Source of the DNA: Sedimenticola thiotaurini
Lineage (GTDB): Bacteria; Pseudomonadota; Gammaproteobacteria; Chromatiales; Chromatiaceae
NCBI RefSeq assembly: GCF_001007875.1
Contig: NZ_CP011412.1
Coordinates: forward strand, 2,976,001 to 3,040,000
Length of the DNA stretch: 64,000 nucleotides
Reading direction: 5' to 3'
Of this stretch, positions 52,701-61,865 are shown piece after piece. The notes beneath the pieces are model-generated. The model made no database searches. It was not told the origin of the DNA and was given only the letters and a program-made list of their open reading frames with translations. The position numbers were made by a program, and so were the translations under genes. Each line of letters begins with the position of its first letter. Position 1 is the first letter of the stretch.

Positions 52701-53885
52701 CTACGGATGGTTATTCAGACTCTGATTGATCAGTTCAACCGGGTGTACGGTACGAATCGTTTGGGGGGACTGGCGCACTTCCCTGGCCAACTGCAGGGCA
52801 CAACCGCTGTTGCTGGTGGCCAGGAACTGCAACTGCTGCAATGCTACCTGCCGGATCGCCCGGGAGCCCAGTGCATCGGACATGGCCGGTTGTTCCAGCA
52901 GGTAACTGCCAGCCGCTCCGCAACAATCGATCTGGTCCAGGCAAACCAGCCGGAGATCGGGAATTCGCCGTAACAGCTGTTCCGGCTCATTGGTCAGTTC
53001 CAATGGATATTTAAGGGTACAGGGTGAGTGCAGCCCAACAGTGCAATCCATAGCGTTGAGTTGGCACTCCGTCGGCCAGTGGCAACGGTTCAGGAATTGG
53101 CTGATCTCATAGAGCGGGGCGGCAAACGGATGGCGGGTCAACTGGGCGCCACAGCCACTGGCCAGGTAGATAATCGCGTCCAGTCCCTGGTTGTCAAAGG
53201 CCCGTTGATTGACGTTGCTCATGCGTTCGGCGCTGGTCGGGTCGCCTCCGTGCTGATGCATGGCTCCGCAACACCCCTGGTTTTCAGGGACCACCACCTC
53301 ATATCCCAATCGGGTCAGGACGGCGATAGCCGCATCCAGTGCGGGTCGATCACTGATGCGTCCCGCGCAACCGGTAAAGAGGCCGACACGTCCCTGTTTA
53401 GGGGAGCTGGTCGGGTAGCGTGGGCGCCAACTGCCCAATCTGGCCCGGTTCGGCAGCAGATCGTCCAGGCGACGCATCTTTTTGCCGATCAGCGGGCGCA
53501 ACAGCTGACGCAGACCGGTGTGGGTGTAGAGCCATAAACCGATTCGGCTCCATCCCTGGTAGGGCAGTCGGGTAATCAGGGAGTGGATGATCCGCTGTCT
53601 GCGGGTCTGGGATCGGGTTGCCCGGTAACCATCAATCAGGCGGCTGTAGTCGACGCCGGAGGGGCAGGCGGACTGGCAGGCAAGACAGCCGAGGCAGCGA
53701 TCCAGATGCCGGTGGGCCCGTTGACTGTCCAGTGCGCCACTGGCTATTCCCTGTATCAGGGATATGCGTCCCCGGGGCGAGTCACCTTCATCCTGGGTCA
53801 GTTTGTAGGTGGGACAGTGGGGCAGACAGATCCCGCATTTGACGCAGCGGTCAGCCTCTTTCAGTAGGGCGTCGTTGTGATTCAC
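52701..53885 (-). CDS. GlcF-like Fe-S oxidoreductase
   Basis: This protein of about 394 residues has two 4Fe-4S ferredoxin motifs (CVKCGICLPHCPTY, CLGCLACQSACPSG) and two CCG domains (GCCGAMHQHGG, DCCGAAGSYLL). The pattern is that of the glycolate-oxidase iron-sulfur subunit GlcF. No glcD or glcE lies nearby. The start is unclear: GTG 53885 is used; TTG codons at 53909 and 53915 would add up to ten residues, and none has a clear ribosome site. Confidence 0.85.
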   Translation of the reverse strand: MNHNDALLKEADRCVKCGICLPHCPTYKLTQDEGDSPRGRISLIQGIASGALDSQRAHRHLDRCLGCLACQSACPSGVDYSRLIDGYRATRSQTRRQRIIHSLITRLPYQGWSRIGLWLYTHTGLRQLLRPLIGKKMRRLDDLLPNRARLGSWRPRYPTSSPKQGRVGLFTGCAGRISDRPALDAAIAVLTRLGYEVVVPENQGCCGAMHQHGGDPTSAERMSNVNQRAFDNQGLDAIIYLASGCGAQLTRHPFAAPLYEISQFLNRCHWPTECQLNAMDCTVGLHSPCTLKYPLELTNEPEQLLRRIPDLRLVCLDQIDCCGAAGSYLLEQPAMSDALGSRAIRQVALQQLQFLATSNSGCALQLAREVRQSPQTIRTVHPVELINQSLNNHP

Positions 53886-54057
53886 GGTGTCTGACGTGGT
53901 CTGTTTCAAGATCAAAGCCGGTTTGTCGGGGTGGCCCTTGGGATTGGTCGGGTGAGGTCCTTCGGTTGCTGAGTGTCGTGGCAGGGCGGGATGATGTCAA
54001 TTCATAAAGCAGATGACGATAGGGGTTGACAGAAAAATCACTATATTAGAAAATTAT
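53886..54057. other. Intergenic region glcF-like / sRNA candidate
   Basis: No gene. It contains a perfect TTGACA (54026-54031) whose expected -10 position reads GAAAAT, so the promoter for the transcript that follows is only half convincing. Confidence 0.4.
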
Positions 54058-54154
54058 GAAACTTTAAATGCAGATGCATTTTTAAGTACTCCATCCTCCT
54101 TTGGTGGTTTATATTATTAAAAGGCGTAGCTTCCCCTGCTACGCCTCTTTTTTT
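54058..54154 (+). ncRNA. Candidate small RNA with anti-Shine-Dalgarno loop
   Basis: No plus-strand gene lies upstream, yet a strong intrinsic terminator ends here (9-bp stem AGGCGTAGC / GCTACGCCT, then TTTTTTT, 54122-54154). Before it stand two further hairpins: AAATGC-AGAT-GCATTT (54066-54081) and CCATC-CTCCTTT-GGTGG (54091-54107). The second exposes CUCCUUU, complementary to ribosome sites, a feature of regulatory sRNAs such as the CCUCCUCCC-motif RNAs of alphaproteobacteria. TTGACA at 54026 may be the -35. The 5' end is a guess. Confidence 0.55.
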
Positions 54155-54175
54155 GAATAAATAGTTCACCGGGCC

Positions 54176-54204
54176 TTGCCAGCGCGCGCGGGGTCCGGTA
54201 ATAT
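54176..54204 (+). promoter_or_regulatory. rplM promoter
   Basis: TTGCCA (54176-54181), a 17-base spacer and TAATAT (54199-54204) form a good sigma-70 promoter. Transcription would start near 54211, 45 bases before rplM. Confidence 0.65.
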
Positions 54205-54255
54205 TCGCGCTCTTTTTTGAAGCGCTAGTATTGTTACTCCGCTGGAGCAAGTCAG

Positions 54256-54684
54256 ATGACGACCGTAAGTGCAAAACCCGCAGAAGTGCGCCGCGACTGG
54301 TTCGTGGTCGACGCCACAGACAAGACCCTGGGCCGTCTCTCAACAGAGATTGCGCGCCGTTTGCGCGGAAAGCATAAACCTGAATATACCCCGCACGTGG
54401 ATACCGGTGACTACATTGTGGTAGTCAATGCGGAAAAGATCCGCGTGACCGGTAATAAGATGAAAGACAAGATGTATCAACATCACACCGGATATATCGG
54501 CAACCTGAAATCCATCAGTCTGGAAAAGCTGCTGGAAAAGGCGCCGGAGCGTGTGATCGAGACCGCAGTCAAGGGCATGTTGCCCAAGAATCCACTGGGT
54601 CGTGCGATGTTCAAGAAGCTTAAGGTCTTTGCCGGCCCCGAGCATGCGCATCAGGCACAGCAGCCCCAGGCACTGGATATCTGA
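54256..54684 (+). CDS. rplM: Ribosomal protein L13
   Basis: The 142-residue large-subunit protein shows [19 protein letters not shown], the [18 protein letters not shown] region and [15 protein letters not shown], all standard for L13. Length equals E. coli L13 (142). First gene of the conserved rplM-rpsI pair; 23 bases separate it from rpsI. Confidence 0.98.
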
Positions 54685-55214: not shown

Positions 55215-55307
55215 TGAAACTACCCGCTCCGGCGGGTTTTTTCATGGGCAGTGAAAAAGGTGCTGTATGGAGGGTGAGAAGCTCCACCGAGGTTCGGCGC
55301 GCAGCGC
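55215..55307 (+). repeat. 93-base direct repeat, copy 1
   Basis: It includes the tRNA terminator and the segment GGGCAGTGAAAAAGGTGCTG. It differs from copy 2 at four positions. Confidence 0.85.
55222..55242 (+). terminator. Intrinsic terminator after tRNA-Gln
   Basis: CCCGC / GCGGG stem with a short loop and six Ts, eleven bases past the tRNA. Confidence 0.85.
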
Positions 55308-55536
55308 CACGAGGAGCATAGCGACGAGCCCGGAGGGTGAGGCCGCAGGCCGAATAATCCTCCATCCCCAGACTGGGGCTCTCCGGTCGACCCGTGGACT
55401 GTTGTCCGCTGGCTGAAATATCCCGACTCTGTGTTAAAGATCTTGCCAATAGCTTTGCTATTGCCTTCAATCTTCGCCTTGATTCGGAATATTTCATCCC
55501 ACCGGTCAATGCGCCCAGAGTCAACCGAAGAACCCC

Positions 55537-61680: not shown

Positions 61681-61865
61681 GTACCCCCCACCTGTGCCGT
61701 AGCAAATCATCGTTCTTGAACCAGTAGGTTCAAGTGGGGACGACAAGGAGGCTTAAGGCTTTCCGCTCGGGGGCGGACATGCACAATGGCACTCCTATTA
61801 AGTCCCCGGGGTAATGAATAGGCTCAAGAAAATACCCGATTCGCTTACAAACACTGCAGGGGATA
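61681..61865 (-). ncRNA. ssrS: 6S RNA
   Basis: The zapA-ygfA gap on the minus strand contains 6S hallmarks: TTGAGCC near the 5' side, AAGCCTTAAGCC after the bulge, and the 3' arm CACTTGAACC-TACT-GGTTCAAG, close to the matching part of E. coli 6S. The ends TATCCCC and GGGGGTA can close the terminal stem. It binds sigma-70 RNA polymerase in stationary phase. The ends are approximate. Confidence 0.85.

Follow-up and report, generated by a model that had tools for sequence, protein, structure and literature searches.

A Candidate Small RNA Gene Upstream of rplM

The window (the whole stretch of Sedimenticola thiotaurini DNA that was analyzed, 64,000 nucleotides) contains, between a divergently oriented open reading frame for a GlcF-like iron-sulfur protein and the ribosomal protein gene rplM, a short segment with a predicted promoter, three hairpins and a terminal run of T residues. 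The initial annotation had described an orphan rho-independent terminator here, and this description holds: no plus-strand gene precedes the terminator, and its flanks are the GlcF-like ORF on the minus strand and rplM on the plus strand. The three hairpins that it described, with CUCCUUU in the loop of the middle one, were each located, as was the upstream TTGACA, which has a -10 element of its own at 17-nt spacing. The middle hairpin of the segment reads CCAUC-CUCCUUU-GGUGG. The features of the locus are as follows.

52701..53915 (-), GlcF-like iron-sulfur protein ORF, divergent upstream neighbor (NF008434, 209.9 bits, below the cut-off of 333)
54026..54054 (+), predicted promoter: TTGACA at 54026-54031, 17-nt spacer, weak -10 element GAAAAT at 54049-54054, TATTA ahead of the -10
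54061..54154 (+), predicted sRNA transcript of about 94 nt, its start placed by promoter distance and its end by the T-run
54061..54087 (+), SL1, variable 5' hairpin (fold; SL1 z-scores of relatives)
54088..54092 (+), short CU-rich ACUCC where SL1 meets SL2 (in many relatives, ACUCCUCC)
54091..54107 (+), SL2 hairpin CCAUCCUCCUUUGGUGG, near-invariant, loop CUCCUUU at 54096-54102 (fold, alignment)
54095..54105 (+), predicted pairing seed CCUCCUUUGGU, complement of ACCAAAGGAGG at the fccA start (complementarity)
54122..54154 (+), SL3, intrinsic terminator: stem of 9 bp at 54122-54146, loop UUCCCCU, T-run at 54148-54154 (two-sided pair changes)
54256..54684 (+), rplM, ribosomal protein L13, conserved downstream neighbor (TIGR01066, 216.7 bits; gene order)

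Of 144 copies of the element, 117 have a TTGAC-like box in range and 27 do not. Aligned on this box, the 117 copies read TTGACA, a 17-nt spacer and GAAAAT, with TATTA ahead of the -10 element, in which G holds position 1 in 59%, A position 2 in 80% and T position 6 in 83% of copies; the predicted start is a purine in 70%. This promoter logo is partly selected, because the choice of box rewarded a TTAGAA-like word downstream of it; both the box and the TTAGAA-like word are also visible in the unselected alignment rows of relatives found by DNA search. The poor -10 element had been counted as a doubt about the gene. The element is indeed weak in the window (GAAAAT), but the same weak -10 recurs across relatives and therefore looks like a trait of the family, which largely answers the doubt. 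Four copies with no TTGACA box in range (L033, L129, L159, and L176) have a conserved upstream block, GGCAGTATCGNAGTAG, instead, and three of them (L033, L129, and L176) have a polyphosphate-kinase-like ORF downstream; L033 is a copy in the S. thiotaurini genome itself (C1:634201-634271).

Distribution of the RNA

A DNA search at E ≤ 0.01 found a match in 31 of 55 genomes, that of S. thiotaurini included. Many of these matches span little beyond the middle hairpin, in which almost every letter is the same, and multiple matches occur in several genomes. A covariance model built from the linker, SL2 and the terminator (R1) has matches at E ≤ 0.001 in 31 of 35 genomes, namely that of S. thiotaurini, 33 of its family and one other, and in 24 of the 25 good genomes within this set. 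Of 369 genomes from the class, 176 have an R1 match at a permissive E ≤ 0.01 per genome; weak matches are included in this count, and a few must be due to chance. All letters of the core are unchanged in 39 of the 74 class copies that were fetched; 80 copies from named genomes were found through the exact motif. Carriers among the matches listed are Sedimenticola, Thiocapsa, Chromatium, Halochromatium, Thioalkalivibrio, Candidatus Thiodiazotropha, and Thiothrix, together with Beggiatoa, Thiomargarita, Leucothrix, and a Gallionellaceae bacterium.

The S. thiotaurini genome has three strong R1 copies at unrelated sites, which score 76.4, 68.8, and 58.8 bits. Two further matches in this genome (L035 and L036, 25-27 bits) lack the core and look like terminators only, and we rejected them as copies.

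Relationship to Known Anti-Shine-Dalgarno RNAs

Rfam at its cut-offs recognizes no family at the window segment. A direct assignment of the window copy was rejected, its 23 matches at E ≤ 10 being weak (the strongest reaches 22.4 bits where the cut-off is 79), and RF02278 (Betaproteobacteria toxic small RNA) is absent from these matches even at that threshold. Across 229 genomes of the class, the RF02278 gathering score of 50 was reached in two, with a next best score of 48.7; both of these members have coq7 nearby, within about 0.7 kb, and some copies of the RNA described here have it within 2.5 kb. The best NmsRb score (RF02877) was 35.1 bits against a gathering score of 52, in the relative L088, and this family is not listed for the window; relatives score weakly with the Rfam models of NmsRb, ncS16, and ncS54. 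Because the Rfam thresholds are not reached, we regard the window RNA as kin to, and not a formal member of, RF02278 or RF02877.

In layout, the segment resembles both families. It has the two hairpins of RF02278, the first with a CU-rich loop following a CU-rich linker and the second serving as terminator, and it has the order reported for NmsR of Neisseria, namely SL1, an anti-Shine-Dalgarno linker (short in the window), SL2 with an anti-Shine-Dalgarno loop, and SL3 as terminator (PMC5362039). The features general to trans-acting sRNAs are also seen in the sequence: a promoter, a terminator, an intergenic position, copies at unrelated loci, and complementarity to translation starts.

The RF02278 RNAs of Burkholderia cenocepacia (ncS03, ncS05, ncS27, and ncS62) share with the RNA described here a CU-rich linker, a CU-rich loop directed against ribosome-binding sites, a terminator, and several copies per genome. 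Most copies here keep the 5' hairpin SL1, whereas three of the four Burkholderia RNAs are reported to consist almost only of two hairpins (PMC5688073). S17 of Bordetella pertussis likewise has a conserved CU-rich 5' end and a first loop that match ribosome-binding sites, and it is reported to lie beside coq7; unlike the RNA described here, its abundant form is reported to be processed from a longer RNA, its conservation is reported for Betaproteobacteria, and its reported targets comprise transporters as well as regulators, a sigma-54 activator among them (PMC11722255). NmsRA/NmsRB of Neisseria (NgncR_162/163) have three stem-loops, an anti-Shine-Dalgarno stretch between SL1 and SL2, and sibling copies, as here, and the consensus of the NmsRb model (RF02877) shows CUCCUUU in the SL2 loop, although the stem letters differ. 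The Neisseria RNAs are in tandem, in contrast to the single copy in the window, and their targets belong to the TCA cycle and amino-acid metabolism. Most of the targets tested, though not all, are reported to be released from repression when the SL2 loop or the linker is altered (PMC5362039, PMC9973317). Among alpha-proteobacterial RNAs, ar14 and SorY have CU-rich exposed stretches in their model consensus, as here, and SorX belongs to the same anti-Shine-Dalgarno group; model matches to these RNAs are weak (ar14, 19.7 bits versus 58.8 for the window). As a separate observation, the RNA is repeated in tandem in some genomes (L068, L069, L070, L071, and L072), with two or three copies spaced over a few hundred nucleotides, an arrangement comparable to the tandem siblings of Neisseria.

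Given that papers on the double-hairpin/NmsR group report that the CU-rich linker and loop cover ribosome-binding sites (PMC5362039, PMC9973317, PMC5688073), we infer the same mechanism here and consider it highly probable that the RNA would act as an anti-Shine-Dalgarno repressor. The proposal that this is a new sRNA stands for the locus and the lineage but not for the kind, a similar mode of action having been reported for RF02278, S17, and NmsR; what is new here is the class-wide spread, the gene order with rplM and tgt-queA, and the recurrent predicted target fccAB.

Predicted Target of the RNA

The word CCAAAGGAGG, a perfect 10-nt complement of the sRNA, stands at the start of fccA in 17 genomes of nine genera. 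The gene itself was matched at 16 of these sites, and at the remaining one (G007) the contig stops after ten fccA-like codons. fccA and the adjacent gene fccB, which carries FCSD domains, match the two chains of 1fcd (cytochrome and flavin) at 8.8e-56 and 6.3e-179. In the S. thiotaurini genome, the pattern CCAAAGGAGG-N2-9-ATG occurs once only, at fccA, and the control has no site. The predicted duplex at fccA, CCUCCUUUGG(U)/(A)CCAAAGGAGG, comprises 10-11 perfect base pairs with an energy of -25.6 kcal/mol, which is below the value at each of the 52 gene starts that were predicted mechanically in the window (mean -12.9, sd 3.7).

The fccA survey took the nearby in-frame start with the longest complement, and long matches are favored for that reason; in close fccA copies with the site, the chosen start is the aligned start. 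The nine rows of the fccA alignment were chosen for having the site, which fixes the core by construction and leaves only the flanks informative; these drift, while spacing and core stay. A comparison with other AAGGAGG starts is circular, many loci having been fetched by the same motif, and was not used. Of the ten genera whose fccA is at least 60% identical, three (G016, G018, and G032) lack the extended site, as do most of the more distant fccAB copies. Presence of the sRNA and presence of the site do not track each other: G010, G018, and G032 have the sRNA only, G016 has neither, and G012 (69% complete) has the fccA site and no model match. Conservation of the fccA start is partly explained by a strong AAGGAGG ribosome site, but the CCA before it is not so explained. 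CCA ahead of AAGGAGG falls outside the pairing with the 16S tail, and the fccA site consequently fits sRNA pairing better than ribosome binding. Weighing these sequence comparisons, we lean toward fccAB as a specific target of the RNA.

The complementarity of the loop to the Shine-Dalgarno core would also suit a general decoy, which would compete with 16S rRNA for many mRNAs, have no specific targets, and slow growth globally. Toxicity of RF02278 RNAs cloned in E. coli and slowed growth upon overexpression of ncS27, as reported in two studies (PMC4603805, PMC5688073), are in line with such a decoy, whereas overexpression of S17 is described as affecting growth of E. coli only modestly, on entering stationary phase (PMC11722255). 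A decoy does not account for an invariant block that reaches beyond the loop. The distribution of complements points the same way: CCAAAGGAGG-N2-9-ATG has 57 sites in 55 genomes versus 28 for the reversed-pattern control, and this excess is mainly fccA (17 sites) and the sRNA itself (6 sites on the complementary strand of its copies), the 34 sites left being close to the control. We consider the general decoy unlikely and prefer a repressor with fccAB as its predicted specific target.

Other complements of the RNA were sought in the S. thiotaurini genome. A 15-mer complement search returned the three sRNA copies and seven sites with two mismatches (reversed control, 1), one of which, L263, looks like a gene start. 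The pattern AAAGGAGG-N3-9-ATG has nine sites versus three in the control, four of which look like genuine starts, those of fccA and of genes for a hydrogenase cytochrome b, FeoC, and an HbpS-like protein. The hydrogenase cytochrome b gene was rejected as a conserved target given that its site decays within the genus, where fccA keeps its own. The genes for the HbpS-like protein and FeoC, which begin with AAAGGAGG ahead of the start codon (L267 and L268; G000 C1:1407072 and C1:1549784), may be additional targets, with roles in the metabolism of haem or iron. In the open-licence part of PubMed Central, we found no report of this shared core or of its link to sulfide oxidation; the core letters occur there in no RNA context and, as DNA, in an unrelated mouse paper.

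Gene Neighborhoods

Half of the 154 copies, 77 in all, are followed immediately by rplM in the same orientation (45 of the 74 fetched class copies and 32 of the 80 named-genome copies), at a distance of 89 to 895 nt. Among the copies with no rplM downstream, the record ends early in 1 of the class set and 10 of the named-genome set. The initial annotation had named rplM synteny as a check, in that relatives keeping this synteny but lacking the element would count against the gene. The element does precede rplM at the frequencies given, which cover genomes with a match only, and in genomes with no match (193 of 369 in the class set and 4 of 35 in the family set) the RNA may well have been lost beside a kept rplM. 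tgt, queA, or both adjoin 27 of the 154 copies, and the S. thiotaurini copy L034 sits between the two. coq7 is found within 2.5 kb upstream of 21 of the 154 copies, 18 of which are also followed by rplM; the neighbors of the window copy are the GlcF-like ORF, in place of coq7, and rplM. These neighbor names rest on Pfam/NCBIfam matches (TGT, Queuosine_synth, COQ7, and PP_kinase_N) of one to three representatives each.

The frequency of rplM downstream would be expected if the segment were the 5' leader of rplM-rpsI, with a transcript from TTGACA that ends at SL3 or reads into rplM as in a cis attenuator. Against this, the distance to rplM varies over the range given above, and the core and terminator also occur together away from rplM, at tgt/queA and elsewhere, including in the S. 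thiotaurini genome; given these copies, the RNA is not tied to rplM, though the rplM site is widely kept. A promoter-like site (9/12 matches) follows the terminator at 54176-54204, and the characterized kin are reported as stand-alone sRNAs (PMC5362039, PMC9973317, PMC5688073, PMC11722255). A leader is thus quite improbable, and an independent RNA gene remains our preferred reading of the segment.

Folding, Covariation, and Strand

A 131-nt stretch of the plus strand folds at -30.7 kcal/mol (z -3.98), and 0 of 200 dinucleotide shuffles fold as well. Single-sequence folds disagree on the chosen pairs. In an alignment of 30 sequences, two-sided changes affect six of the nine terminator pairs, with a covariation score that none of 500 shuffles attains; two-sided cells number 42 versus a shuffled mean of 13.6, all within the terminator stem, and further pair types show no excess (10 versus 11.3 in shuffles). 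In a wider set of 78 distinct rows, the alignment of which was fitted to the model, such changes affect 12 of 14 pairs, including three SL2 pairs, and two-sided cells, these SL2 pairs among them, number 119 versus 21.0 in shuffles. Compensatory changes, which had been suggested as a check on all three stems, are thus present in the terminator stem; SL2 barely varies and its loop is nearly fixed, and the three changing SL2 pairs appear only in the model-fitted set. Because SL2 barely varies, its stem has little covariation support; it is nearly letter-perfect in many genera, and this near-invariance argues for a role of the SL2 letters themselves.

The letters of SL1 differ freely among copies, and the hairpin is kept. 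Among 82 unique SL1 regions, taken from copies that have a good promoter box and an SL1 of 15-75 nt, the median z is -4.1, and z is below -1 in 93%. The SL1 of the window is among the weaker ones (z -1.86, for a region cut a few bases short of the stem). The terminator loop is C-rich in many copies (e.g., UUCCCCU), and several SL1 loops have runs of C (L001-L031); further pairing sites in these loops are possible.

The minus strand folds slightly better than the plus strand (z -4.46), and folding alone consequently leaves the strand unfixed; we assign the plus strand because the promoter and T-run there recur in relatives. A minus-strand gene or leader, in which the terminator would be bidirectional and a short frame preceded by the Shine-Dalgarno-like AAAGGAGG would form part of the leader of the GlcF-like gene, could draw on that fold and on AAAGGAGGATG inside a 100-aa open frame (54041-54343), but we reject it as highly improbable on promoter, T-run, and gene order, given that in 120 of 154 copies the search used detected no divergent glcF relative and the element is kept there (some of these records end too early to tell) and that the opposite frame comprises 3 aa in L331, the one relative examined.

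Proposed Role and Wider Context

We are nearly certain, from the sequence comparisons above, that the segment represents a conserved sRNA gene. The reading that we prefer, with a probability of about 0.75, is that of an independent, trans-acting anti-Shine-Dalgarno sRNA gene for which fccAB, the flavocytochrome c sulfide dehydrogenase genes, would be the most likely specific target. What computation shows directly is the anatomy of the gene, its conservation and order among neighbors, the paired changes in the terminator, the two paralogs with the same core elsewhere in the genome, and the complementarity to fccA. From them we infer that the RNA would be transcribed from its own sigma-70-type promoter to its own terminator. 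The exposed C/U-rich stretches at the SL1/SL2 join and in the SL2 loop would pair in the cell with Shine-Dalgarno regions and repress translation by blocking ribosome binding; the claim that the layout is that of an sRNA blocking translation starts is accordingly upheld as the best reading, as a prediction. The physiological sense may be a restraint of lithotrophic or central energy metabolism. More tentatively, the sRNA may have kept the locus coq7 - sRNA - rplM across the beta- and gamma-proteobacteria, and in the sulfur-oxidizing gamma branch it may serve as a post-transcriptional brake on sulfide oxidation through an extended and conserved duplex at the fccA start.

Trans-acting sRNAs are usually thought to be narrow in range. 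Here, one sRNA core can be traced together with its gene order through many families of one class, which suggests that the separately catalogued RF02278, S17, and NmsR belong together. The genes rplM, tgt-queA, and coq7 offer positional handles for such RNAs, and the predicted fccAB target leads directly to the hypothesis that an RNA controls the oxidation of sulfide in bacteria resembling Sedimenticola.

Other RNAs are recognizable elsewhere in the window. An RtT RNA (RF00391, 52.3 bits) lies at 55253-55374 on the plus strand, just after a tRNA gene, and is followed further on by a second, sub-threshold RtT match (L001 3056-3147). A 6S RNA (RF00013, 83.9 bits) lies at 61681-61865 on the minus strand.
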